DNA of 64,000 nt from Agrococcus terreus (GTDB lineage: Bacteria; Actinomycetota; Actinomycetes; Actinomycetales; Microbacteriaceae), in assembly GCF_014645235.1 (NCBI RefSeq), contig NZ_BMLM01000001.1, positions 744,001-808,000 of the forward strand. Reading direction: 5' to 3'. How positions within the stretch are numbered: the stretch's first letter is position 1; every line of letters begins with the position of its first letter. A program made the translations under genes and the position numbers. Of this stretch, positions 3-13,649 are shown piece after piece. The notes under the pieces were generated by a model. That model had not been told where the DNA came from. It saw nothing but the letters and a program-made list of their open reading frames with translations, and searched no databases.

Positions 3-830
3 ACGACGACCAACCCGAAGCGCACGGCCACGTTCTCCATCGAGGAGCGTCTGGTGGCCGGTCTCCGGCAATGGGACGGCGACTTCGCACCCGGCAACCT
101 TCGAGCACCGATCGTACGGCCTCCGCGCAAGAGCGTCCTGACGATCGGGGGTGGCAACGGCGAGATCATGCATCCGATGTACTACGGCAACGAGCGGATC
201 TTGAGCCTCGTCCGTGCCATGGATCATCCTGTGCTCCGCATCTCCAAGGCCTTCGCCCCGCGATACAACGTCACACGCGTCGCGGAGAGCACGCAGGGCT
301 TCCTGGAAGACAGGGCGCAGTTCATGCGCGGCATCGGCCAGAATGATGCGACGGCGCTCAACGTGTTCCAGATGATGTCGAAGTATCGACGGTGGCTGAA
401 CTCGCAGCTGACCGGCACCTCCTTCGTGCTCTTGGCCAATCCTCTCTTCGTGCGGGCGGCGATGTCGCTCACACCGGAACAGAGGCTCGAGCGCTTCATG
501 CAGGGAGAGATGGCGAGGAGGCTGGTGCCGCAGTGGGAAGGGCATGCCTACTACAAGGCGTCTCCGGGTGACTTCAAGCAGTCCGACATCGTGCAGGACA
601 GCCGGATCTGGAAGACATCGCCAGGGTCGATGGAGCGGATGCTGCAGGACGACGAGGCGTGGAAGATGTGGTTCGACGAGTCACTGATGCTTGCGCTGCA
701 GGAGGAGGTTCGGTCGGGGAACGGTGCGACTGTCCACGAATCCACACTGTCGAAGGCTTTCGTGGTGAACGGTCTGCCTTCACACGTGGGCGCGCTCGAG
801 GGGGTCAGGCGCGGCCTCTGGGATCACTGA
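3..830 (+). CDS. 5'-truncated CDS, tentatively asparagine-synthase-like C-terminal part
   Basis: The reading frame is open from the window edge, so the gene starts upstream; a GTG at 54 is only an internal possibility. The visible 275 residues have no signal peptide or membrane segment. A glycine-rich stretch (LTIGGGNGEIMHPMYYGNE) and a later ANPLFVRAAMSLTPEQR stretch followed by a basic helix resemble the C-terminal synthetase half of AsnB-like amidotransferases, where a GGDE-type loop and a 'DPRLVEFALSLP'-type helix occur. The N-terminal half, with the ATP-binding motif, lies outside the window, so the assignment is weak. It sits at the head of a glycosyltransferase cluster and may modify a surface polymer (inference). 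Confidence 0.45.
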   Translation, partial: TTTNPKRTATFSIEERLVAGLRQWDGDFAPGNLRAPIVRPPRKSVLTIGGGNGEIMHPMYYGNERILSLVRAMDHPVLRISKAFAPRYNVTRVAESTQGFLEDRAQFMRGIGQNDATALNVFQMMSKYRRWLNSQLTGTSFVLLANPLFVRAAMSLTPEQRLERFMQGEMARRLVPQWEGHAYYKASPGDFKQSDIVQDSRIWKTSPGSMERMLQDDEAWKMWFDESLMLALQEEVRSGNGATVHESTLSKAFVVNGLPSHVGALEGVRRGLWDH

Positions 831-861: not shown

Positions 862-921
862 CGGAAGCGGTGACCAGGTCGGCCCCGATCTGCGTGCGCC
901 ATGACGAGAAGAGATCAGAAC

Positions 922-2271
922 ATGCGTATCGCGGCTGTCGTACACAACGAGGTTCGGCACGACGCGAGAGTACTCAAGAGTGCCTCGACGATGAAGGCCC
1001 GGGGGCACGACGTTCGCTTGTTCGGACTCACCGCGGGTGAATCGGAGAGCTTCTCGCTCCCCAATGGGATCCCCGTACGACTCGAGCATCGAGACCTCTC
1101 GGACCGGACCCCGAGAATCGTTCGTGAGCAGCTCCCGAGGGGGCGCGACAGCGCGATCTGGACATCGTTCCGGATCCAGGGCGAGACGGTGTTCCAGGCT
1201 GTGAAGGCCGAATTCGTTCCGGACATCGTGCACATCCATGATCACCTCGCTCTCGCGGCAGCAGGCCTCTACAAGGAGGCGTTCGACTGTCCGTTGATCT
1301 GGGATGCGCACGAGATCTACGAGGACCTCGCCAGCATCGAAGATGTTCGCGCTGTGGTGAACGCTCGGATCATCGAGCAGAACGCCGGCCATGTCGACGG
1401 CTTCGTCACGCTCAACCGGAGCATCGCTCAGTTCTACCGGGAGCAGTACGCCTCACTTCCGGAAGCAGTGCTGGTGCCGAACGCTGTCGAACGAGTCGCC
1501 CAGACGAGCTACGACGGCCGTCTGCACGCTGCGGCTGGAGTCGAGCCTGGTCAGAAGATCCTGCTGTTTCAGGGTGGGTTCTCGCCGCACCGAGGCATTC
1601 CAAACCTGCTGGAGGCAGCGGCGCTCCTCGACGAGCAGTGGACGGTCGTCTTCATGGGATGGGGCAAGCTCGAAGAGGAGATCCGCGCTGTCGCGGAGGA
1701 GACCTCGTCGCGCCCAGCCGGGCGGCCTCGGGTGGCGATCGTGCCTGGAGCTCCCCAAGACGAACTGCTGAGCTGGACTGCCGGCGCCGCTCTCGGCGCC
1801 ATCCCCTACGAGAACACCGGACTCAATCACCTCTACTGCTCACCGAACAAGCTCTGGGAGTACCCGGCAGCGGGAGTGCCGATCCTCGCCACCGACATGC
1901 CCGAGATGAAGCACAAAATCGAGACGCATGGGATTGGTTTCACGGTGGGCCGCGAGCTCGACCCGCGTGAGATCGCCGCCAAGGTCAACGCGCTCACGGA
2001 TGACGAACTCGCAACCCTTGCTCTCAACTGCGGGAGCTTCGCGGACGTCGACAACTGGCAGCGCTATGAGTCGCGCCTTGAGGGGCTGTACGCGAAGCTC
2101 GCCGGACCGCCGACCCTCGATGAACCGAGGCGCGCGCACGATGCTGCTGTCCCGACTGCCGGAGATGGCCGGGGCGCCCCGGAGGATCTCCCAGGCGATT
2201 CTCCGGCACGGGAAGAGGGGCTGCTGCAGAGGGTGTCGGCGGGCATCGCGCGACTCTTCACCGGGAAGTAG
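922..2271 (+). CDS. GT4-type glycosyltransferase
   Basis: A 449-residue GT-B glycosyltransferase, expected to act in the cytoplasm on a nucleotide sugar and a lipid-linked or polymer acceptor. The N-terminal Rossmann half begins MRIAAVVHNEV and contains DIVHIHDHLA. The C-terminal half has the donor-binding region VLFQGGFSPHRGI and an ENTGLNHLYCSPNKLWEY segment (about residues 295-313) in the E-x7-E position of the family. The ATG at 922 is preferred over an in-frame ATG at 901 because GAGAAGAGA lies 7 nt ahead of it and nothing like a ribosome site precedes 901. The C-terminal 50 residues are low-complexity. Codon use is clearly less GC-rich than in genes beyond 12 kb. Sugar specificity cannot be read from sequence. 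Confidence 0.82.
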   Translation: MRIAAVVHNEVRHDARVLKSASTMKARGHDVRLFGLTAGESESFSLPNGIPVRLEHRDLSDRTPRIVREQLPRGRDSAIWTSFRIQGETVFQAVKAEFVPDIVHIHDHLALAAAGLYKEAFDCPLIWDAHEIYEDLASIEDVRAVVNARIIEQNAGHVDGFVTLNRSIAQFYREQYASLPEAVLVPNAVERVAQTSYDGRLHAAAGVEPGQKILLFQGGFSPHRGIPNLLEAAALLDEQWTVVFMGWGKLEEEIRAVAEETSSRPAGRPRVAIVPGAPQDELLSWTAGAALGAIPYENTGLNHLYCSPNKLWEYPAAGVPILATDMPEMKHKIETHGIGFTVGRELDPREIAAKVNALTDDELATLALNCGSFADVDNWQRYESRLEGLYAKLAGPPTLDEPRRAHDAAVPTAGDGRGAPEDLPGDSPAREEGLLQRVSAGIARLFTGK

Positions 2272-2327: not shown

Positions 2328-3653
2328 GTGAACGACGAGAAGATCTACATCACCAACGAAGCCGAGGTCGGGTTGCCTCCGTTGCAGCTCGCTCGCAAGG
2401 CGGTGTGGGACTACTACCGCATCGAGTTCCTGCCGAGCGGGTATCCGGGGCGGCGGACCGATGACGTTCTCTACGCCCACCCGATCTACGGGCCGTACGT
2501 GATCGCCGACTACGTCGCGCAGTATCGTTCGACGGGCGATCAGGCATACCTGGACGCCGCATGCAGGGTCGCCGACGCGGCGGTCGCGCAGATGACCGAG
2601 ATCGGCGGGGGGCTCGCGTTCGTCTACAGCCCCGAGTCGACGAGGGTCTCCAGTCGCATGCGGCCGTTCTACAGCGGGTTGACGCAGGCCCGGTATGTGG
2701 ATGTGTTCACCAAGCTCCTCGCTCAGCCAGGCACCGATCGGTTCCACGAACCGCTCGCGAAGATCCTCGACAGCTTCCTCGTCTCGACCGAGGAGGGTGG
2801 CGTCGCGCGCTTCACGAAGGGTGGAGGTCTGATCATCGAGGAGTACCCGGGCGAGGCCCCGGATTGCACGCTGAACGGATGGACGACGGCGACGGTCATC
2901 CTGCGCGACTACGCCCGCGCGAACGATGACGAGCAGGCTTGGGACCTGTTCCGGCAGTCCGTGAAGGGCATCGAGGACCTTATCTCCCTGTTCGACGCGC
3001 CGGACTACGCGAGCTCGCGCTACAAGCTGAGCGGGCGGGCGACGTTCAAGCTCACCGCTCTCGACACCGACCTGGAGCTCACCGCTGCGGCCGTGGAGAT
3101 GCCGGGGAGCGGCACCTATGCGGGCAGCCGTGCTGGGGATGCCGCGGGCGAGGTCGTTAAGGATGGGCCGAAGCGTATCGGCTCAGGCCGATCCGTCTCG
3201 GTGAACCTCCTGCTCAGCCGAGTCACGTGGCCTGCGCCCAACAGAATCCACTTGAGCGTCCGCGCCGACGGCGCGGGCACTCTGCGGACCGAGATCGGGG
3301 ACGCCGTCTACGAGCCTCTGACGAGTGTGCTTCCGGTCCGCTTCCACCACCACATCGCTGATGTCGAGGTGGTCGACGGGGACAACGAGCTCGACATCGA
3401 GGTGCCCTGGGTGCACGCCGAGCATGTGGCGTACCCGACCAACTTCGGCAAGAAGATCGCCGGACGGCAGGTGAATCAGTACCACTGGATCCATGTCGAC
3501 ACCTTGGCGAAGATCGCCGAGGAGACCGGCAGCGACATCCTCCGCTACTACCGGGATCGCTGGGCGAAGGGCCCTTCGAGATGGGCAGACCTGCCCGGCT
3601 ACCAGGACGAGCGCATCATGCTCGAACGCTTCGATCCGAAGAAGCACAAGTAG
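2328..3653 (+). CDS. D-glucuronyl C5-epimerase family protein
   Basis: A 441-residue protein of the (alpha/alpha) toroid type. The stretch ending LNGWTTATVILRDYARA (about residues 180-196), followed by a duplicated helix pair and a segment ending YASSRYKLSG, matches the pattern of the C-terminal domain of heparosan/heparan glucuronyl C5-epimerases (LNGF...GLYDYYR...WSRYDL). Those enzymes convert D-glucuronate to L-iduronate inside a polysaccharide. The C-terminal 180 residues look like beta-sandwich sequence. The GTG start at 2328 is supported by GGAGG at 2317-2321, 6 nt upstream. No signal peptide is visible, so it should be cytoplasmic. Ugd at 15.2 kb could provide the UDP-glucuronate precursor. 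A lyase or glycan-binding role in the same fold cannot be excluded. Confidence 0.65.
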   Translation: MNDEKIYITNEAEVGLPPLQLARKAVWDYYRIEFLPSGYPGRRTDDVLYAHPIYGPYVIADYVAQYRSTGDQAYLDAACRVADAAVAQMTEIGGGLAFVYSPESTRVSSRMRPFYSGLTQARYVDVFTKLLAQPGTDRFHEPLAKILDSFLVSTEEGGVARFTKGGGLIIEEYPGEAPDCTLNGWTTATVILRDYARANDDEQAWDLFRQSVKGIEDLISLFDAPDYASSRYKLSGRATFKLTALDTDLELTAAAVEMPGSGTYAGSRAGDAAGEVVKDGPKRIGSGRSVSVNLLLSRVTWPAPNRIHLSVRADGAGTLRTEIGDAVYEPLTSVLPVRFHHHIADVEVVDGDNELDIEVPWVHAEHVAYPTNFGKKIAGRQVNQYHWIHVDTLAKIAEETGSDILRYYRDRWAKGPSRWADLPGYQDERIMLERFDPKKHK

Positions 3654-3882: not shown

Positions 3883-6800
3883 TTGGTTGCCTCGCACGAC
3901 TCGGCCGACATGAGCAGCCACGGGCCCGCCCGGGATGACGCAGCCGACATCCCGTTCGATCACCACGGGGTGGCGCCGAAGGTCTCGGCTTCCAGCCACG
4001 GTTCCGGTGCCTTGGGATTGGTCGATCGTGACGCGGGGCCCGCGACCCGAGTGAGTGTGCTCGAGGAGCGGCTGCAACGGGCCGAGGGTCGGTTGCAGCG
4101 GTCCGCGGAACGCCTGCAGCGGTCCGAGGAGCGGTTGCAGCAGGCCAGGGCTGGCCTGGAGAGGATGCGCTCGTTGCGGGACGCGGCGGCGTCGCGGGGC
4201 GCCCAGGCGCGTGAACAGCTGACCGCGTTGCAGGCGTCGGCGCGGGAGACGGTCGCGCAGTTGAGGGCGGAAAAGGCCTCTCTGCGTGAACAGGTTCGGC
4301 AGCAGCACGCGTCCTCCTCGTCGTTGCTGGCGGAGAACAAGGCGCTGCGCAAAGAGGTCGCGGCGTCCGCGGCTGGGGTCGGTGCGCTCGAGGGGCGCCT
4401 GCAGCGGTCCGAGGAGCGGTTGCAGCAGGCCAGGGCTGGCCTGGAGAGGATGCGGTCGTTGCGGGACGCGGCGGCGTCGCGGGGCGCCCAGGCGCGTGAG
4501 CAGCTGACCGCGTTGCAGGCGTCGGCGCGGGAGACGGTCGCGCAGTTGAGGGCGGAAAAGGCCTCTCTGCGTGAACAGGTTCGGCAGCAGCACGCGTCCT
4601 CCTCGTCGTTGCTGGCGGAGAACAAGGCGCTGCGCAAAGAGGTCGCGGCGTCCGCGGCTGGGGTCGGTGCGCTCGAGGGGCGCCTGCAGCGGTCCGAGGA
4701 GCGGTTGCAGCAGGCCAGGGCTGGCCTGGAGAGGATGCGGTCGTTGCGGGACGCGGCGGCGTCGCGGGGCGCCCAGGCGCGTGAGCAGCTGAACGCGTTG
4801 CAGGCGTCGGCGCGGGAGACGGTCGCGCAGTTGAGGGCGGAGAAGGACTCTCTGCGTGAACAGGTTCGGCAGGAGCACGCGTCCTCCTCGTCGTTGCTGG
4901 CGGAGAACAAGGCGCTGCGCAAAGAGGTCGCGGCGTCCGCGGCTGGGGTCGGTGCGCTCGAGGGGCGCCTGCAGCGGTCCGAGGAGCGATTGCAGCAGGC
5001 CAGGGCTGGCCTGGAGAGGATGCGGTCGTCGCGGGACGCGGCGGCGTCGCGGGGCGCCCAGGCGCGTGAGCAGCTGACCGCGTTGCAGGCGTCGGCGCGG
5101 GAGACGGTCGCGCAGTTGAAGGCTGAACTGGTCGCTGTTCGAGAGCGCGCTCGCGCGGAGCAGGCCGAGATGCGCGAACAGGTCCAGGCTGCGAAGGCGT
5201 CCTCCTCGTCCCTCGCGGTGGAGCTCGTTGCGATGCGCAAGGAGATGGCCGCTCTGACGAAGCAGCGCTCCGCGCTCGAGGGTCGTGTGGAGCGCTCTGA
5301 GGGCCAGCGCGAGCAGGTCAGGGTTGCTCTGGAGAAGATGCGGGTGCAGCGCGATGCGGTGGCGTCGCGGCACGCGTTGGTTCGCGAGGAGCTGACCGCA
5401 CTGCAGACCTCGACTCGGGAGGCGGCGGCGAGGTGGAAGGCCGAAGCGGCAGAGCTTCGGGCGCAAGTGCGCGCCGAGAAGGCCTCCTCGTCGTCATTGT
5501 TGGCCGCGAACACGAAGCTGAAGAAGGGGGCGGCAGCGGCGGCGACCCGGATCGGTGCGCTCGAGACCAAGGTGCAGCATTCCGAGGAGCGGTCGCAGCA
5601 GACGAGGGATGCACTGAAGAAGTCCCGCGACGGTGCGGCCGAGAAGCAGGGAGTCCTGGTCGAGCGGCTCGCTGTGTCGAGGGAGCGGATCGCGTCGCTG
5701 GGTTCGCTCTGGACCAGCGCACGGAGATATGCCGCGCTGTACCGCCAGGGGCTTCTCTACGACGAGATCTCGAATGCAGACATCGATCTGAGCGCAGACA
5801 CCTATCTGTGCCTGTTGCCGAGCACCGTACCGGCAGCGATGACCCTGAACCGGATGCACGGAGGTGGCGCGAGGATCATCTGCGATGCCGTCGAGAACGT
5901 CGAGGTGCACAAGCACTCCCTCGCTCCGAACCTGCACCCGCCGACCTTGGACCTGGTGAACCTCGGCGCTTACGGCGCGCTCACGCAGGTGGACGGGATC
6001 ATGACGGTCAGCAACTCCGTGGCGAAGACCCTCTCCCGCTTCGGTCCGCCCGTCCGGCTCCAACCCAACTATCGTCGCTACGAAGAGCCGGCTCCCGCGG
6101 GCGGCCTGAGACGGCGGCTGGGCCTCGATGCGGAATCGACGCTCCTCGTGACGACCGGCAACGTCGTCAAGGGCTTCGACACCGTGATCGACGCTCTGGC
6201 GCTCCTCCCGCCGACCGTCCACCTGGTCGCGTTCGTGAAGATGAGCCCGCCGCCGTACGAAGCGAGCATGCGCGCCTACATCGAGAGCAGGGGTCTCTCG
6301 GGGCGTGTTCATGTCCTGGGCTTCGTGCCGTACGACGAGCTGGCGGGGGTGCTCTCGGAAGCCGACCTCGGCCTGATCACGTTGGATCCAGAGAACCCGA
6401 ACCACTCGGTGTCACTGCCGAACCGCGTCTTCGACTTCACGACTGCCGGCCTGCCGTTCGTAGTGCCGCCGCTCGCCGAGATCTCCGCCCTCGTGGAACA
6501 GCACCGCTGCGGTGCTGTCATACCGGAGGTCTCCGCGGAAGCATGGGCAACGACCATCCGGGAGGTGCTGTTGAACATCTCCGACTACCGGGATGCCATG
6601 CGCATCGCTCGGAAGAAGCTGACCTGGGAGAGTCACGACGACGGTCTCATCGAGTTCCTGGGGAATCCGAAGTCAGTGACGCTCCTCGGCTTCCGCGACC
6701 TGTCTCGATACCAACGCTTCCTCCGCGTCACCGACTCGCTCACACAGCGCGGCATCCACGTCAAGGCTGCCTTCTTCTCCGAAGATCCATTGCCGCTGAA

Positions 6801-6885
6801 GAACAAGGATGCTGAGTTCTACTACTTCTCAGATCGATACGGCAAGTCACCCGGGCTCAAGCGAGTCCCTTCGGTGGGTGCCTGA
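3883..6885 (+). CDS. coiled-coil glycosyltransferase with tandem internal repeats
   Basis: A 1000-residue protein. After a disordered N-terminus of about 50 residues comes a long alpha-helical coiled coil (about 50-600) rich in E, R, Q, A and L, built from near-identical 95-residue units. A GT-B glycosyltransferase domain follows (about 615-960): CDAVENVEVHKHSL, TVSNSVAKTLSRFG, VTTGNVVKGFDTVIDALALL (about 757-776) and an E-x7-E-type region DPENPNHSVSLPNRVFDF (about 832-849). The last 40 residues may be truncated relative to relatives. Starts at TTG 3883 or ATG 3910; neither has a strong ribosome site. Membrane segments are absent, so the coil probably oligomerises or spaces the enzyme, as coiled coils do in some chain-length regulators of polysaccharide synthesis (inference). 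Confidence 0.8.
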   Translation: MVASHDSADMSSHGPARDDAADIPFDHHGVAPKVSASSHGSGALGLVDRDAGPATRVSVLEERLQRAEGRLQRSAERLQRSEERLQQARAGLERMRSLRDAAASRGAQAREQLTALQASARETVAQLRAEKASLREQVRQQHASSSSLLAENKALRKEVAASAAGVGALEGRLQRSEERLQQARAGLERMRSLRDAAASRGAQAREQLTALQASARETVAQLRAEKASLREQVRQQHASSSSLLAENKALRKEVAASAAGVGALEGRLQRSEERLQQARAGLERMRSLRDAAASRGAQAREQLNALQASARETVAQLRAEKDSLREQVRQEHASSSSLLAENKALRKEVAASAAGVGALEGRLQRSEERLQQARAGLERMRSSRDAAASRGAQAREQLTALQASARETVAQLKAELVAVRERARAEQAEMREQVQAAKASSSSLAVELVAMRKEMAALTKQRSALEGRVERSEGQREQVRVALEKMRVQRDAVASRHALVREELTALQTSTREAAARWKAEAAELRAQVRAEKASSSSLLAANTKLKKGAAAAATRIGALETKVQHSEERSQQTRDALKKSRDGAAEKQGVLVERLAVSRERIASLGSLWTSARRYAALYRQGLLYDEISNADIDLSADTYLCLLPSTVPAAMTLNRMHGGGARIICDAVENVEVHKHSLAPNLHPPTLDLVNLGAYGALTQVDGIMTVSNSVAKTLSRFGPPVRLQPNYRRYEEPAPAGGLRRRLGLDAESTLLVTTGNVVKGFDTVIDALALLPPTVHLVAFVKMSPPPYEASMRAYIESRGLSGRVHVLGFVPYDELAGVLSEADLGLITLDPENPNHSVSLPNRVFDFTTAGLPFVVPPLAEISALVEQHRCGAVIPEVSAEAWATTIREVLLNISDYRDAMRIARKKLTWESHDDGLIEFLGNPKSVTLLGFRDLSRYQRFLRVTDSLTQRGIHVKAAFFSEDPLPLKNKDAEFYYFSDRYGKSPGLKRVPSVGA
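4111..5118 (+). repeat. 285-bp tandem repeats inside the coiled-coil glycosyltransferase gene
   Basis: Units start at 4111, 4396, 4681 and 4966, each opening with CGCCTGCAGCGGTCCGAGGA. The first three are full 285-bp (95-codon) copies differing by only a few substitutions; the fourth matches for about 153 bp to 5118 and then diverges. Two older, strongly diverged units continue to about 5640 (for example KASSSSL and ALEGRVERSE). The period is divisible by three, so copy-number change keeps the frame. Near-identity at synonymous positions indicates recent duplication or ongoing gene conversion. Confidence 0.95.
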
Positions 6886-7032
6886 AGCGTTGGAGCGACC
6901 GCTCTGTGACTCGGAGAGAGTCGCCGACCTCTGCAGGTCCTGTCTTCCGGCTCCGCAGGGTGCGACGTGGCCGCTGCCGCACTCCACCAGAACACGATGG
7001 TGTCGGACGCCCTTGCACGCCTTCGAGCGGCT

Positions 7033-8550
7033 TCAGCGGGGTCGATTCGTCCTGGGTCCCCGAACTGCGCGCCGCCCCCGCGTGTTCACGGCGGTGATCT
7101 CCGCGGCCGAGAGGATCGTCGCGCCGAATAGGCGCTCCGGCGGTCGGCGGGATGCCAGCGCGTTGACGATGCGCTTGACGGAGGGGTCCCATGGCGACAG
7201 CCTGGCCCAGGCTCCGGGGTAGGAATCGGCGTACCCGAGCCTCCAGCCTGCCGAGGCAGTGTCTGCATGCCGAGGGAGCCAACGCAGGCTGTAGGCATTG
7301 CGATCCTTCGTGATGAACTCCTGCCTGAGTGTCGCCGCGACGACTCCCAAGACTTCAGGTCCCACCAGTTCGGGATCAGCCGCATGCCAGTCGTGCAACG
7401 CACGAAGCCTCATCGTCGCGTGCGAACTGTCCTCAGCTCGAGGAACCCCGGGCACCTCGCGTTCCGCGATCGGAGCATCTCTGGACACCCCTATGAAGGA
7501 ATCGCTGCCTTCTGGATAGTAGAACCAAGGATGCGGAAGGTCGCCAGCCTGGTATCTGGAGATCTCCTTGAGCCAGGGACCGGTGAGAGACGCACCGCGC
7601 TTCCAAAGGCGCTCGTCCTCGTCGCGTCGCCCGATCAGCAGGAAGGACGTGGCCACGTCAGCCACGTGATTGTGAGGGAGTTCGACGGCGAGGCGCCTTC
7701 CTGGAAAGTCCGCGGGAGTGATATACCACTGATAGTCCTGCCCGCTTCGCAACTGATCATCATGATGAGTGAGCGCTTCACGTCCGGCGTCGTACAGCTC
7801 GTCGGGCGTCACGGCCGCGAGGATGTGCCCGCCGCCCGCTTCCTCGAGGGCGTCCGCTGTCTCGATGAGAGCCCGGACTATCAGTCCTGTGTGCACGAGG
7901 TGGGGCGCACGTTGCGCCTCGACCGCGAACTCGCCAGCCGGGAGGAAGCTCAGATCGATGGGCTCCTTGAGGCCCTGGATCCGGACGGAATACGCGGAAG
8001 CCCTGCGAGCGAGTACGTCGGGAAGGTAGTCGTTGGACGACGGGTCGAGCGACGCCTCGGGTGATGACCACGAGGTGCCATCGTCTCGGATCGCATGGAC
8101 GATGGCAGTGCCAGGCTTAGGCCTCTCGATCCTCACCGCTGCTGCCGCCGCCTGCAGCGTGACGGCCGGAACGGTGTTCTCTCCGAGACGGACGGTGCCC
8201 GCGGTGTAGCGCGAGCCGGCGGACCAGACTGCCCCACGCCGTCCTCGCCAGTCAGTGATGCCGCGAGCCGCGTCGGTGCGTTCGATGACGTGCTGAGACC
8301 AGTCCGCGGCCTGATGGAGGTGAGTAGCGCTCCCTGAGTACCGCCACGCAACGCAGGCGGCACGGATCATTAGTGAGACGTCCCACGCGAAATGCCCGGA
8401 TTCGTTTGACGAATACGTTGCATCCTGCGATACCTGCTCACCCAACGACCGCAGTCCTTCTGTGGTGAGGTTCTCATAGGTGGAACGTACGTCGGATGCT
8501 CGACGGGTCATGTCCGTGGGTAGACCGTGGGGGAGGGCGTCGTGGTCCAC
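7033..8550 (-). CDS. uncharacterised protein, possible (alpha/alpha) toroid carbohydrate-active protein
   Basis: About 505 residues with no family I can name. Tryptophan- and tyrosine-rich helices (HFAWDVSLMIRAACVAWRYS near the N-terminus, DWRGRRGAVWSAGSRY about residue 100, HPWFYYPEGSDSF in the second half) and repeated helix-loop pattern suggest an (alpha/alpha)-barrel of the type seen in polysaccharide epimerases, lyases and hydrolases. No signal peptide or membrane segment is visible. A GTG at 8550 is preferred because AGAGAGGGAGAC directly precedes it; a GTG at 8610 in the same frame would add 20 residues but lacks a ribosome site. It is convergent with the coiled-coil glycosyltransferase and lies between sugar-polymer genes, which suggests a role in that pathway (inference). 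Confidence 0.6.
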   Translation of the reverse strand: MDHDALPHGLPTDMTRRASDVRSTYENLTTEGLRSLGEQVSQDATYSSNESGHFAWDVSLMIRAACVAWRYSGSATHLHQAADWSQHVIERTDAARGITDWRGRRGAVWSAGSRYTAGTVRLGENTVPAVTLQAAAAAVRIERPKPGTAIVHAIRDDGTSWSSPEASLDPSSNDYLPDVLARRASAYSVRIQGLKEPIDLSFLPAGEFAVEAQRAPHLVHTGLIVRALIETADALEEAGGGHILAAVTPDELYDAGREALTHHDDQLRSGQDYQWYITPADFPGRRLAVELPHNHVADVATSFLLIGRRDEDERLWKRGASLTGPWLKEISRYQAGDLPHPWFYYPEGSDSFIGVSRDAPIAEREVPGVPRAEDSSHATMRLRALHDWHAADPELVGPEVLGVVAATLRQEFITKDRNAYSLRWLPRHADTASAGWRLGYADSYPGAWARLSPWDPSVKRIVNALASRRPPERLFGATILSAAEITAVNTRGRRAVRGPRTNRPR

Positions 8551-8861
8551 GTCTCCCTCTCTCGCCGGCCCTACTCGCGAGTCCTGGCGCTCCCATCGGT
8601 GAGCGTTCACCGCCGGTCAGTCTAGCCCTGCCTGGCGGGAACGGCTCCGGCACTCTCGCGAGTGGCTTCAACTGGCCCGGAACGGACTCCTAATGCGTTC
8701 GAAGTGACCGAGCCAAGTCGCTATTAGGGCCGCCGCCCCGGTTCCCCTGCACAACCGCTGCTGCGGATCACTCACGCTGGGGCAACGCCTGCGGCAACGC
8801 CGCATCGCATGAGACTGTGCCAGGGTCGCGCGAGTGTCGCGGCTTGGATGCGAGATGCGCC

Positions 8862-10013
8862 TTACTTGACGGCGAAATCTGGCTCACGCTCGCCGACGCC
8901 AAGCAACGCTGCGATCGCTGCAACTGACCGAGCCGACGCCTTGCCGTCGCCGTAGGGGTTTACGGCGTTCGCCATCGCGGCGTACGTCTCCTCGTCTTCG
9001 AGCAAGTGGTTCGCTTCGAAGACGATGCGGTCGTAGTCGGTGCCGACGAGGCGCACCGTGCCGGCGTCGACGGCCTCGGGACGCTCGGTGTTGTCGCGCA
9101 TGACGAGCACCGGCTTGCCGAGGCTCGGCGCCTCCTCCTGCACGCCGCCCGAATCGGTGAGGATGATGCGCGCAGCGGCCATGACCTTCGTGAACTCGGC
9201 GTAGGGCAGCGGCTCTGTCACGATCACGTTGTCCTTCCGCTCCAGGTGCGGCAGCACAGCCTCGCGCACTGCTGGATTGCGATGCATGGGGAGAATGACG
9301 ATGTGGTCTGGATGCTTCTTCGCGAGCTTCGCAAGGGCGCGGGCGACTGCGCCCATGCTGTCGCCGAGGTTCTCGCGCCGGTGCGTGGTGGCAAGGATGA
9401 TGGGCCTGCCGCTCGCTATCGCCTCGGCGACGGCGGGGTCGCTGGGAACGGTGTCCCACGAAGACGCCTCGAGCAGCGCGTCGATGACGGTGTTGCCCGT
9501 GACGACGATCGTCGACGGCTCCACCGATTCGTGGAAAAGGTTGTCGCGCGACCTCTTCGTCGGCGCGAGGTGAAGCGTAGCGACCTGACTGATGAGCTTG
9601 CGATTCGCCTCTTCGGGGAAGGGCGAATCGATATTCCCGGTGCGGAGGCCCGCCTCGAGGTGCACGACCGCCACCTGCCGGTTGAACGCGGCGATCGCCG
9701 CGGCCATGGCGGTCGACGTGTCGCCCTGCACGATCACGATCTCGGGCTGCTCCTCGACGAGCAGAGCATCGATGCCCGCTATCGCGCGGGACACGATGCC
9801 GTTGAGCGGCTGCCCGGGGATCATGAGATCGAGGTCGTGCTTCGGCGTGATGTCGAACATCGTGTTGACCTGGTCGAGCATCTCCCGGTGCTGACCGGTG
9901 ACCACCGGGATCGACTCGAAGCGCTCATCTCGCTTGAGCATTTCGATGACGGTGGCGACCTTGATCGCCTCCGGTCGAGTCCCGTAGATCGTCATGACCT
10001 TGGGTTTCACCAT
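8862..10013 (-). CDS. wecB: UDP-N-acetylglucosamine 2-epimerase (non-hydrolysing)
   Basis: Interconverts UDP-GlcNAc and UDP-ManNAc in the cytoplasm, the precursor for ManNAc- or ManNAcA-containing surface polymers. The 383-residue length is normal for the family. Visible family motifs include MTIYGTRPEAIKVATVI at the N-terminus, VQGDTSTAMAAA (about residue 90), HLEAGLRTGN, TTHRRENLG and LTDSGGVQEEAPSLGKPVLV (about residue 285). The ATG at 10013 is chosen because the family starts here; the open frame continues 66 codons upstream into the exporter gene without homology. It is 20 nt behind the ABC ATPase stop and probably co-transcribed with the exporter genes. Confidence 0.93.
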   Translation of the reverse strand: MVKPKVMTIYGTRPEAIKVATVIEMLKRDERFESIPVVTGQHREMLDQVNTMFDITPKHDLDLMIPGQPLNGIVSRAIAGIDALLVEEQPEIVIVQGDTSTAMAAAIAAFNRQVAVVHLEAGLRTGNIDSPFPEEANRKLISQVATLHLAPTKRSRDNLFHESVEPSTIVVTGNTVIDALLEASSWDTVPSDPAVAEAIASGRPIILATTHRRENLGDSMGAVARALAKLAKKHPDHIVILPMHRNPAVREAVLPHLERKDNVIVTEPLPYAEFTKVMAAARIILTDSGGVQEEAPSLGKPVLVMRDNTERPEAVDAGTVRLVGTDYDRIVFEANHLLEDEETYAAMANAVNPYGDGKASARSVAAIAALLGVGEREPDFAVK

Positions 10014-10033
10014 GATGGTCGTTCCGTGTCTTG

Positions 10034-10870
10034 TCAGGTTCCGGAGAAGAGGGGAGGGTGGGACTCGGTCGCGCTGACGAGCGCCTTCTTCGCAGCCCTG
10101 TCCTTGCCGAGCGCGATGCTGTGCGCGTAGTAGCGGTACATGTTGGCGACCTCTCCGGCAGGGCCGTCGGCGATCAAAGTTCCGGCGTCGAGCCACAGAG
10201 CTCGCGTGCACATGTCCTCGATCGTCTGGGCCGCGTGGCTCACGAGGAACACGGTGCCGGCGCGAGCGATCAGGCCATGCATGGCCTCCTTCGCACGTTC
10301 GGTAAACGAGGCGTCGCCAGTCGAGAGAGCCTCGTCGATCATCAGGATCTCCGGGTCCGCGGCCACCGAAATCGCGAAGCGCAGCCTTGCTGCCATGCCG
10401 GACGAGTATGTGCTCATGGGTTGCTTGATCGCTTCGCCGAGGTCGGCGAGCAGCTCGATGCGCTCCCGCGCGAAGTACGCCTCGTCAGGCGTCATGCCCA
10501 TCGCGAGGGTGCCGAGCCAGATGTTCTCCAGTCCCGACAGCTCGGGCACGAGGGCAGCGCTGACGCCGAGCAGTTGCGGTTGCGCGCTCGCGACCACGGT
10601 GCCCGATGTTGCGGGCTGCAGGCCGGCGAGCACGCGCAGCAGCGAGCTCTTGCCTGAGCCGTTCAGACCCACTAGCCCGACCATCTCGCCCTCGCGTGCG
10701 GCGAGCGAGACGCCGCGCAGCACTGGGCCACTCACCGGCCGCTTCCCGAGGATCGAGCGGAACGAGCGCGGGCCCGAGCGCTGCACGCGGTAGCGCAGGC
10801 GCACGTTGTCCGCCGCGATCGTCACCTTGGGGTCGCTGCTGAGGTGCCAGCCGGTCTGGAAGTCACTCAC
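10034..10870 (-). CDS. tagH: polysaccharide/teichoic-acid ABC exporter, ATP-binding subunit
   Basis: A 278-residue ATPase of the TagH/Wzt/RfbE class that powers export of a completed polymer across the cytoplasmic membrane. Walker A GLNGSGKSS (about residue 68), signature YSSGMAARL, Walker B ILMIDEALSTGD and H-loop SHAAQ are intact. There is no extended C-terminal carbohydrate-binding domain of the Wzt O9a type; only about 30 residues follow the ABC fold. Its start overlaps the permease gene by 8 bp, so the two are translated together. The preceding permease and following epimerase form one minus-strand unit. Confidence 0.9.
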   Translation of the reverse strand: MSDFQTGWHLSSDPKVTIAADNVRLRYRVQRSGPRSFRSILGKRPVSGPVLRGVSLAAREGEMVGLVGLNGSGKSSLLRVLAGLQPATSGTVVASAQPQLLGVSAALVPELSGLENIWLGTLAMGMTPDEAYFARERIELLADLGEAIKQPMSTYSSGMAARLRFAISVAADPEILMIDEALSTGDASFTERAKEAMHGLIARAGTVFLVSHAAQTIEDMCTRALWLDAGTLIADGPAGEVANMYRYYAHSIALGKDRAAKKALVSATESHPPLFSGT

Positions 10871-11825
10871 GGGTGTAGCGCTCCTCGTCGAGCCAGAACA
10901 CGGTAAAGCCGATCGTCAATGCACCAAGGGCCCACGCCGCGAGCATCGTCCATTCGGCGAGGGGGGGTACTGCGCCGTCGATGAGCACAGTGCGGTAGAG
11001 GTCTAGTACGACGTAGATCGGATTCGCCTCGATGACGGCCATGATCGTCGGGTGGTCGATGAAGCGGTCGATCGGAAAGATGACTGCAGACGCATACATG
11101 AGGAACCGGCTGACGAAGCTCATGGCCTGCGCCAGGTCAGGGAGGACGGCGCCAAGCCAGCCAAAGAGGAGCGAGAGCCCGAGGTTGAGCGTCGTGTGCA
11201 GCAGAAGGATGACGGGGAAGAGCGACCAGGTCACGCTCGGGATCTCGTGCGGCGGCACGAGCACGATGCCTCCGAGCATGACGATGATTGCAGGCATCGC
11301 CATCATGAGCTCACGCACCGTCAGGGATACTGCGACGGAAGCACGAGGGAAGGCGAACGCTCGGAGCATCGCCTTCGATCCTCGGATGAGGCCCACCCCG
11401 CCCGTGATGGCTCGACTCGTCAGCCGATACATGAATATGCCGACGACGATCCATGCGAGGAAGTTCTCCATGCCGCGAGACGCCTGGAGGATCAGCCCGA
11501 AGACGATGCCGTAGAACGCGGCGTCGAGGAGGGGGCGCAGGACGTACCAGAGCGCGCCGAGGCGTTCGTTCGAGTAGCGGGTGACCGCCGCGCCGCGGGC
11601 CCCTGCCCAGATGAAGTGGCGCCGATCCCACAGCTCGGTGAAGTACTCGCGCAGCGGCGGCCGGCTCCCGACGCGCCGGAGGTGGCTGAGGTCGCCGTAG
11701 CGGCTCTCGAGGTCGCGCCGGAGCGGCGTGGAGAGCAGCTGGGCGCCCGACTTCCGCGTTGACCACGCTCGTCGCCACTGCGTCCGGAGTCCCTGCGACT
11801 CGCGGCGCGGCGATGAGCGAGTCAT
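10863..11825 (-). CDS. tagG: polysaccharide/teichoic-acid ABC exporter, permease subunit (ABC-2 type)
   Basis: A 320-residue ABC-2 membrane protein, partner of the ATPase downstream. After a basic cytoplasmic N-terminus of about 90 residues there are six hydrophobic segments, beginning near LLDAAFYGIVFGLIL and ending WTMLAAWALGALTIGFTVFW, as in TagG/Wzm. The sequence LRELWDRRHFIWAGARG-like interface helix before the first membrane segment is typical of the class. A -10-like TAGCAT lies about 60 nt upstream on the minus strand. First gene of the tagG-tagH-wecB unit. Substrate is inferred only from the neighbourhood. Confidence 0.88.
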   Translation of the reverse strand: MTRSSPRRESQGLRTQWRRAWSTRKSGAQLLSTPLRRDLESRYGDLSHLRRVGSRPPLREYFTELWDRRHFIWAGARGAAVTRYSNERLGALWYVLRPLLDAAFYGIVFGLILQASRGMENFLAWIVVGIFMYRLTSRAITGGVGLIRGSKAMLRAFAFPRASVAVSLTVRELMMAMPAIIVMLGGIVLVPPHEIPSVTWSLFPVILLLHTTLNLGLSLLFGWLGAVLPDLAQAMSFVSRFLMYASAVIFPIDRFIDHPTIMAVIEANPIYVVLDLYRTVLIDGAVPPLAEWTMLAAWALGALTIGFTVFWLDEERYTRE

Positions 11826-11900: not shown

Positions 11901-13649
11901 TCAGACACCCAGGCGTCCGTAGGCGTCGCGATACGTCTGCGCGACCGAGCCCCAGGTGCGCTCGGCCGCTCGGCGCTTGCCCGCGTCGGCCAGCTCCTCG
12001 CGCGCGGGGGGCGTCCTCGCGATCTCGGCCAGGCGCTCGGCGAGCGCCCCCGCGTCCCCCGGAGGCACGGTCGCTCCGGCCGCGACCATGCCCGGTCCGA
12101 CGGACTCGACCAGCGGCGGCAGGTCGCTCACGAGCAGCGGCGCCCCCGCGGCCATCGCCTCGATCGGCTTGAGCGGTGCGACGGTGCGGGTGACCTCGCG
12201 GTCGACGCGCGGCACGACCACGACGTCGAGCGCGTCGAGCCACTGCGCCGCCGCCTCCCGTGGCACGCGACCCGGGAGCACCGCGGCGCCGTCGAGGCCG
12301 AGCTCGGTCGCGAGCGTGAGCAGCGCCGGCCGCGCTGTGCCGTCGCCGATCAGGAGCGCACGGATGTCGTGGCCGGCCGCGCGGGCCTGGGCGACCGCGC
12401 GGAGGAGCACGTCGAACCCCTCGTAGTCGACGATCGACGACGCGGCGCCCACCCAGAAGCCCTCGCGCGGCAGGCCGACGCCGAGGCGCGCGTCGGCCGG
12501 GGCGGGGCGCTCGCGCTCGAGCAGCGCCGCGTCGATGCCGTTGGGCACGAGCTCGATGCGCTCCCGCGGCACGCCCCGCTCGACGAGGTCGTCGCGCATC
12601 CGGTCGGCCAGCGTGAAGACCGCGTCGGCGGCGGCGGCGAGCTCGGCCTCGCGCGCCCGCACCAGCGCATAGCGCTCGCTCGAGCGAGCGCGTTCTCGCG
12701 CCTCGTCGCTGGCCAGCCCCGAGAGCCAGGTCTGCTCGAGCATGCCGCGCACCTCGTACGCCCAGGGCAGGCCGAGGGCCTCCGCCACCTCGCGGACGAC
12801 GACGGCATTCGGGTAGTGCGTCGTCGTCTGCAGCGCCGCGGGACCGATCCGGGCCGCGAGCGCCGCCAGCGCATCGGCCTGCTGTCGGAGCCGCCCGTCG
12901 GGCGTCGACGCGAGCGCGACGGGGAGCGCGCGGTGGTACGCGATGCCGTCGATGACGTCGATCGCGCGGGCGCCGAGCCCGCCGACCACGACCGGATAGC
13001 CGACCCGCGTCATCGCGACCGGCGCGAGCCCCGCGTCGCGCTGCGCGCGCAGCACCGCGTGCGATCGGATCGTGTAGCCCGACTGCGTGTGCGGCAGCGA
13101 GTTCGTCAGGAGGTGCAGCACGCCATGGCCGTCGACGGTCGGCGCTCCGGCGTGCGTCCAGCGCAGGCGCGTGCCCGGCGTCATGAGCGCCCGCTCCGCA
13201 CGCAGCACGCGCCGGAGCCTCGGAGCCCGAACGCCGTCGAGCAGCGCGATGGCGGTCGTCGCCTCTCCGAGCTGCCACGCGGCACGCGCTCGCGCGACCG
13301 GATGCGCGGTGGGGTCGTCGACGACCAGCTCGGGGCGGCCCGCCGCCTGCGCGACCTCGGCCGCGAGCCGCGAGAGCCCGGGGCCGGACGTCTCGTCGAG
13401 GATGCCGCGCACGGCATCCAGCTCGCCCCGCATCCACGCGCCGAGCAGCGCCGCGTCGGCGCCGCGCGCCGATGCCGCCGCCCGCACCAGGGCGCGCCGG
13501 GCGAGCGGGAAGCGGCGCGCCAGCTGGATGCCGAAGAGCGTCGGGTCCTCGCCGAGCGAGCGGGCCGCGGTCGCCGCCGCCATCGCCGCGTTGCCGACGA
13601 GCCGGAGCGGCAGCGCATCGCTGAGGATTCGACGCGATCGGGAGGCCAC
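11901..13649 (-). CDS. GT4-family glycosyltransferase with N-terminal helical extension
   Basis: A 582-residue protein. The first 170 residues are helical, alanine- and arginine-rich, and not part of a standard glycosyltransferase. The GT-B fold starts near GVLHLLTNSLPHTQSGYTIR and includes VPNGID (about residue 385), GFWVGAASSIVDYEGFDVL, the donor-site region REVTRTVAPLKPIEAMAAG (E-x7-E position) and a C-terminal Rossmann fold. GTG start at 13649 with GGGAGGA 8 nt upstream on the minus strand. It is divergent from galU with only 28 bp between the start codons, so their promoters must overlap. GC-rich codon use here is like the chromosome core, unlike the genes before 11.8 kb. Likely adds a hexose during polymer or glycolipid assembly. 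Confidence 0.8.
   Translation of the reverse strand: MASRSRRILSDALPLRLVGNAAMAAATAARSLGEDPTLFGIQLARRFPLARRALVRAAASARGADAALLGAWMRGELDAVRGILDETSGPGLSRLAAEVAQAAGRPELVVDDPTAHPVARARAAWQLGEATTAIALLDGVRAPRLRRVLRAERALMTPGTRLRWTHAGAPTVDGHGVLHLLTNSLPHTQSGYTIRSHAVLRAQRDAGLAPVAMTRVGYPVVVGGLGARAIDVIDGIAYHRALPVALASTPDGRLRQQADALAALAARIGPAALQTTTHYPNAVVVREVAEALGLPWAYEVRGMLEQTWLSGLASDEARERARSSERYALVRAREAELAAAADAVFTLADRMRDDLVERGVPRERIELVPNGIDAALLERERPAPADARLGVGLPREGFWVGAASSIVDYEGFDVLLRAVAQARAAGHDIRALLIGDGTARPALLTLATELGLDGAAVLPGRVPREAAAQWLDALDVVVVPRVDREVTRTVAPLKPIEAMAAGAPLLVSDLPPLVESVGPGMVAAGATVPPGDAGALAERLAEIARTPPAREELADAGKRRAAERTWGSVAQTYRDAYGRLGV

Follow-up and report, generated by a model that had tools for sequence, protein, structure and literature searches.

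A coil lengthened by recent in-frame tandem repeats precedes an apparently permuted GT-B glycosyltransferase domain in Agrococcus terreus

Recent amplification of the coil

The open reading frame at 3883–6885 (+) of the window, by which we mean the whole 64,000-nucleotide stretch of Agrococcus terreus DNA that was analysed, encodes a protein of 1000 amino acids (the coil-GT protein) in which a long coil, recently extended by in-frame duplication of a 285-bp unit, stands in front of a glycosyltransferase (GT) domain. The likeliest role of this coil, judged by analogy with described coiled-coil rulers, is that of a spacer or ruler, to which we assign a probability of about 0.45. The start codon is TTG 3883 or the in-frame ATG 3910. 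The C-terminal ~400 residues matched the Pfam families Glyco_trans_1_4 (E 2.1e-11) and Glycos_transf_1 (E 1.7e-8), both above cut-off, while the sub-cut-off matches to CortBP2 and several SMC/Rad50 entries in Pfam and NCBIfam reflect the coil. The same two collections gave no second catalytic domain at the opposite end of the coil.

The repeat array is genuine and far exceeds what chance would produce. Tandem Repeats Finder placed it at 4111–5127, with a period of 285 bp, 3.6 copies, 98% matches and a score of 1964, compared with 103 for the second-best of the 39 rows obtained for the window. Both this program and the codon comparison resolved unit 1 (4111–4395), unit 2 (4396–4680), unit 3 (4681–4965) and the recent part of unit 4 (4966–5127, 162 nt), all on the + strand. 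Beyond them lie an older, diverged copy at 5284–5568 (+), at a spacing of 318 nt (285 + 33), and a fragment of a further old copy at 5573–5620 (+; 81% over 48 nt). A repeat search likewise returned 300-nt copies at 4104 (100%), 4389 (98%), 4674 (97%), 4959 (71%) and 5277 (66%). The first-pass annotation had set the array at 4111–5118; its start holds, but the end lies at about 5127 and the diverged copies carry the repeat pattern further on.

Comparison codon by codon showed that unit 1 differed from unit 2 by 2 synonymous and 0 non-synonymous changes, from unit 3 by 3 and 3, and from the first 162 nt of unit 4 by 4 and 2, respectively. The old copy at 5284–5568 differed from unit 1 by 25 synonymous and 69 non-synonymous changes. 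All units are in frame within the ORF. These comparisons establish a recent, in-frame amplification of the 285-bp unit, and they bear out three earlier claims: that three nearly identical 95-codon units are followed by a partial fourth, that the identity reaches into synonymous positions as expected of recent copies, and that the unit is a whole number of codons and keeps the frame. The fresh copies form the end of the coil distal to the catalytic domain, and the older, diverged copies extend to the end of the coil. Since fresh and old copies derive from one block, the coil grew by its duplication more than once. The assembly is in 8 contigs, and the real unit count could differ from 3.6.

The rest of the genome yielded no strong copy of the unit, the next best match being 47 nt long (E 0.0013; 40 of the 255 candidates scored). 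The unit was also considered as a dispersed repeat and rejected: its pattern occurred four times in the Agrococcus terreus genome and not at all in 59 other relatives. An origin from a mobile plasmid or phage was discarded as well, the region 4000–5700 having no blastn match in plasmid or phage collections. Directly 5' of the 285-bp units, Tandem Repeats Finder reported a short array of 21-bp (7-residue) repeats at 4062–4146, as if single heptads had been duplicated too.

Properties of the arm

The proline-free arm spans 552 residues (4042–5697, +), corresponding to at most 82 nm as one continuous helix, and is presumably an oligomeric coiled coil. Heptad-like periodicity, with a hydrophobicity peak at a period of 3.46–3.60 residues, was observed in 13 of 18 arm windows (63 residues each; no shuffled control). 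The whole arm taken together gave no peak at 3.5. With peaks in the single windows and none over the whole arm, the heptad register must slip; the missing whole-arm peak is expected if breaks shift the register, and equally if the coil is imperfect. The repeat lengths of 95, 106 (95 + 11) and 39 residues would accommodate heptads plus one hendecad, and units of such lengths could keep the coil in register.

The contribution of each unit had been put at 14 nm. The arithmetic is sound (95 residues × 0.1485 nm = 14.1 nm), but the value is an upper bound. Each 95-residue unit contains the Gly-bearing stretch AAGVGALEG, which may break the helix, and a unit may in reality be shorter than 14 nm.

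Orthologues and their distribution

Six orthologous loci were found in a scan of 84,980 species (one genome each), giving seven members with the window. They belong to Brevibacterium renqingii (L058, NZ_JADBHF010000013.1), Brachybacterium timonense (L059), Brevibacterium sp. ZH18 (L060), a Brevibacterium MAG (L061), Tersicoccus solisilvae (L062) and a Rhizobacter MAG (L063), with domains 64%, 63%, 58%, 53%, 53% and 45% identical to that of the window, respectively. A search at the level of the order (396 genomes) gave three prominent orthologues (E 8e-173, 2.4e-155 and 1.4e-141), and all three recur among the six loci.

Closer to the window species, only Agrococcus terreus itself matched at E <= 1e-30 among 398 genomes of the same family, the other 397 being without an orthologue. 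Within the genus, GT matches at E <= 0.001 occurred in 16 of 24 genomes; none was close, the best outside the species' own genome having E 7.8e-9 and 26% identity over 126 residues. Seven of these same-genus loci were read, and no comparable coil preceded the match, some frames entering non-coding sequence. The coil-GT family is rare and patchy, which suggests transfer together with polysaccharide clusters. The coil-to-domain junction was alike in the five loci that could be read in one frame (L058–L062), with the consensus ARRY..LYRQGLL..EI.

The Rhizobacter MAG locus (L063:9372–11157) is a member of an otherwise actinobacterial family. Its coil lies directly upstream in another frame, with one frame break before the domain and another within it, near 10700. 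This locus is partial in the domain alignment and is described here as it stands, frame breaks included; it represents either a transfer, a mis-binned contig or a decayed gene.

Coil length and repeat units across members

The coil precedes the catalytic domain in all seven members, and its length differs several-fold between orthologues. Over the six members for which it was determined (the window and L058–L062), the proline-free stretch measured 552 residues in the window, 232 in L062, 175 in L059, 130 in L061 and 79 in L060; in L058, whose contig stops partway through the coil, it was at least 130.

The Tersicoccus coil has a tandem of its own, composed of four 39-residue units at 9470, 9587, 9704 and 9821 of L062. 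Units 1–3 share 91–97% DNA identity, whereas unit 4, which adjoins the catalytic domain, is only 62–66% identical to them. Thus, both species with repeats carry their fresh copies at the end far from the catalytic domain, although the amplified unit differs (95 residues in the window species, 39 in Tersicoccus). The L061 coil, whose domain is 75% identical to that of L062, contains two diverged copies of the Tersicoccus 39-residue unit. Four units in one and two in the other indicate that units were gained or lost between these relatives.

Short-read assemblies tend to end at repeats. The L058 contig ends inside the coil, at its position 1, which is suggestive of a repeat there; the sequence at the edge occurs at a single place in that genome.

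Probable circular permutation of the GT-B domain

The GT-B domain is probably, though not provably, circularly permuted, as judged from a structure model and the placement of its tail. The front part of the domain (5779–6657, +), defined by the model and by structural comparison, corresponds to the later part of the N-domain and the C-domain. It is followed by a conserved C-terminal tail with a strand-helix-strand-strand arrangement (6658–6882, +), in which we see the first N-domain strands, moved from their usual place.

An AlphaFold2 model of 5650–6882 (pLDDT 80, pTM 0.75, 7 sequences) contained the GT-B fold over model residues of about 26–341. The best 18 rows of the structural comparison were all glycosyltransferases, in which model residues from 22–38 to 339–343 were paired with chains beginning only at residues 59–104; the usual GT4 strand order with strand 1 at the N-terminus is apparently absent. 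GlgM (6tvp) was aligned over 301 residues with Z 22.7 and rmsd 3.2. The N-terminal piece of the normal enzymes remained unpaired in front of the domain, and the last 70 residues remained unpaired behind theirs. In the model, the tail formed a strand at 342–348, a helix at 351–366, and strands at 370–376 and 388–393. It is strongly conserved, with a mean column identity of 71% and the pattern GFRDL..YQR.LR.

In a profile of ordinary GT4 enzymes (23 of 26 loci, with L040, L053 and L055 dropped), the best place for the tail was residues 34–70, that is, strand 1-helix 1-strand 2, with 27% identity. The seven tails together scored 24.4 against this profile; among 300 column shuffles, 2 reached the score, 18 the place and 0 both. 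The corresponding numbers were 7, 26 and 0 of 300 for a profile of the orthologues of window 901–2271, and 73, 28 and 11 of 300 for a third profile (L002), and no shuffle reached the N-terminal position in all three profiles at once. These controls concern three profiles chosen for already placing the tail at the N-terminus; in three of the six GT4 profiles, the tail was not placed there.

The alternative that the tail is an unrelated C-terminal addition to a merely truncated N-domain appears unlikely. It draws on those three profiles, on both rotation scans, and on the lack of a significant sequence match for the tail alone. The window tail had no Pfam match, and two of the seven members matched Thioesterase weakly (best E 0.19); PDB sequences gave no sensible match, the four hits at E 0.56–1.5 being implausible; Foldseek returned none at E <= 0.001; and the stretch of WaaG at the place expected for the tail scored -0.8 bits, a value of no weight on its own. 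In the rotation scans against ordinary GT4 profiles (six of seven members, L063 left out), several arbitrary cuts scored best, and the permuted and natural orders were not separated, the signal of the tail being smaller than the gap cost over the profile inserts; at most, these scans speak mildly against a permutation. On the other hand, the strand-helix-strand-strand arrangement of the tail agrees in size with the missing piece, and its best match in the GT4 set falls on that piece, with 0 of 300 shuffles equalling it in score and place. Folded alone (pLDDT 81), the tail had weak structure matches (Z <= 5.2), yet 15 of the 50 rows, which we take to be GT-B proteins, were matched N-terminally (chain start <= 27), with low Z.

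A search for the tail in 57 Brevibacterium genomes gave three matches, all at known loci, and no tail-bearing unpermuted ancestor. The same profile returned the own match and three weak ones (E 0.003–0.007), chance-like on reading, from 396 genomes of the phylum. A true permutation would mean that the GT-B fold has been rearranged in nature. In the literature searched, mostly at the level of titles and abstracts, no naturally permuted GT-B glycosyltransferase was recognised; the circular permutation treated in PMC11046441 concerns the GH70 barrel. More tentatively, and with more doubt than trust on our side, the permutation may have freed the N-terminus, where a ruler coil grows by in-frame duplication, lineages tuning its reach and perhaps the length of the polymer.

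Residues of the donor loop

In addition to the strand order, the members depart from ordinary GT4 enzymes at catalytic residues. The residue before the C-domain loop glycine was R in 23 of 23 ordinary GT4 sequences, while the same position was occupied by K in the window and by N, N, G, V, V and V in the other six members. The basic donor-loop residue was therefore absent in six of seven members, and the C-domain loop aligned two residues shorter. The E of the (N/K/R)xFE motif was replaced by D in all six readable members. In GT4 enzymes, the basic residue of this loop is the donor-phosphate residue. With the basic residue mostly lost, the loop shortened and E changed to D, the catalytic activity of the domain is uncertain. 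The earlier premise of an ordinary polymer-building GT4 holds as to the glycosyltransferase match and the GT-B fold, but is doubtful as to the ordinary form of the enzyme.

Gene cluster

Upstream of the coil-GT gene are an ordinary GT4-type glycosyltransferase (901–2271, +), with an orthologue (55–63%) in five of the six other loci, and a D-glucuronyl C5-epimerase-like protein (2328–3653, +), whose Tersicoccus orthologue is 59% identical. The frame at 54–830 (+) is the end of a 581-aa frame (upstream L057:3085–4830), presumably asparagine-synthetase-like by inspection; its portion in the window had no Pfam match. Downstream lies a 525-aa protein (7033–8610, -) without a Pfam, NCBIfam or PDB sequence match, whose orthologues in L059 and L060 (43% and 47%) lie close to the coil-GT gene. 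It is followed by a UDP-GlcNAc 2-epimerase (8862–10211), an exporter ATPase of the Wzt/TagH-like type (10034–10870, -; NCBIfam matches below curated cut-offs), a Wzm-like exporter permease (10863–11825, -; Pfam ABC2_membrane above cut-off, NCBIfam below) and another GT4 (11901–13649).

Both Wzm/Wzt-like exporter subunits were present in the cluster of four of the seven members (window, L059, L060 and L061). No exporter genes were seen near L058 and L062 in the flanking DNA examined, and L063 had an ATPase-like match only (30%). Genes for a UDP-sugar dehydrogenase, an oxidoreductase, an aminotransferase and a second 2-epimerase, named partly by inspection, were found upstream and in relatives. 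This set of genes suggests an aminouronic-acid polymer.

Role of the coil

Coiled-coil rulers are established setters of glycan length, known from engineered changes of coil length (PMC5082667). In ABC-dependent O-polysaccharide systems, as these sources describe them, a coiled coil keeps the terminating enzyme apart from the polymerase (PMC11231755, PMC5082667); the WbdD coil places the catalytic domains some 20 nm away (PMC5082667, PMC11231755), and insertions or deletions in it raise or lower the modal chain length (PMC5082667). The coil-GT protein resembles the WbdD/WbbB rulers of E. coli O9a and K. pneumoniae O3, O12, O4 and O7 in its long coil joined to a glycan-modifying module and in the Wzm/Wzt-like exporter genes of its cluster (PMC11231755, PMC5082667). 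It differs from them in that the GT-like module is C-terminal to the coil, the coil carries recent tandem repeats, the hosts are mostly actinobacterial, and no known terminator was recognised in Pfam and NCBIfam. The methyltransferase/kinase domain of WbdD was not found in the 1000 residues by the same searches, which excludes WbdD itself but not the wider class of rulers, whose terminators differ. The first-pass annotation had a coil in front of a polymer-building enzyme; the order of coil and enzyme agrees with what we observed, but in the rulers described in PMC11231755 the coil bears a chain terminator, held away from the polymerase.

Compared with the GT4 enzymes GlgM, HepE, PimB', BshA and WaaG, the coil-GT protein shares the GT-B fold and both Pfam families, but it lacks the first N-domain strands at the front, the C-terminal tail apparently taking their place, and the donor-loop basic residue is mostly lost. 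Coil rulers as such are already known; the novelty lies in a coil that long in-frame tandem units have recently extended and that precedes a GT-B domain of apparently permuted order. No repeat-grown coil of such a kind was recognised in the literature searched, again mostly titles and abstracts.

As a spacer or ruler, the coil would hold a GT-type module at its C-terminal end, in a cluster that would make a surface polysaccharide and export it through an ABC transporter. It would set the distance of the module from whatever holds the other end, whether the membrane, the polymerase or the exporter, and this distance would limit which chain ends are reachable, as in WbdD-type rulers. Coil length would evolve in large in-frame steps through unequal recombination of tandem units, fresh ones being added distal to the GT domain. 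The coil may affect chain length, and the module would act as chain extender or terminator.

Passive scaffolding ranks second to this spacer or ruler role, and we consider it doubtful. The coil would then be an oligomerisation or scaffold device only, its length weakly constrained and drifting by tandem duplication with no graded effect on the polymer. This fits coils that range from 79 to 552 residues among members whose GT domains keep about 45–66% identity to that of the window, and repeat units that differ between the window species and Tersicoccus, where a tight metric element might be more constant; a ruler adapted to different polymers, however, would also vary in length, and the coil has been retained in seven of seven members. 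The changes in the donor loop raise another reading, in which the GT-like domain is dead or uses an unusual donor and the protein serves the cluster enzymes as a glycan-binding tether or length sensor. Although K, N, N, G, V, V and V in place of an otherwise invariant R, the loop two residues shorter and the six E to D changes all point that way, the domain is well conserved (45–64%) over long distances, the tail and the LPN(K/R)xF(D/E) region are conserved too, and E to D is a conservative change, so that a pseudoenzyme seems improbable to us.

Phase-like variation of polymer size had also been proposed, with the array as a contingency locus whose unit number often changes within a population. 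Units 1 and 2, near-identical over 285 bp, would be a good recombination substrate, and a precedent exists in the polysialate O-acetyltransferase NeuO, in which a variable heptad tract tunes a polysaccharide enzyme in a graded fashion, as reported in PMC3046976. Both proteins have an N-terminal tandem-repeat extension of variable length (between species, in the case of coil-GT) on a polysaccharide enzyme. But the NeuO units are of 7 nt, slipping and frame-shifting, whereas those of coil-GT are of 285 nt and in frame, and the NeuO extension is disordered in the crystal while that of coil-GT is a predicted coil (PMC3046976). The coil-GT units are long and few, and since adding or dropping one always preserves the frame, no on/off switch arises; we regard frequent variation within a population as very improbable.

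The members look like a natural counterpart of the engineered coil changes: coil length in the orthologues spans 79 to 552 residues, and two of the coils carry tandem repeats, each of its own unit. Across such natural variants, it can be tested whether polymer length is linked to coil length.

A further observation concerns the cluster of Brachybacterium timonense, where two glycosyltransferase modules share a single open frame of 1734 codons (L059 ~5249–7720). One of them is the orthologue of window 901–2271, and the arrangement appears to be a tandem fusion.
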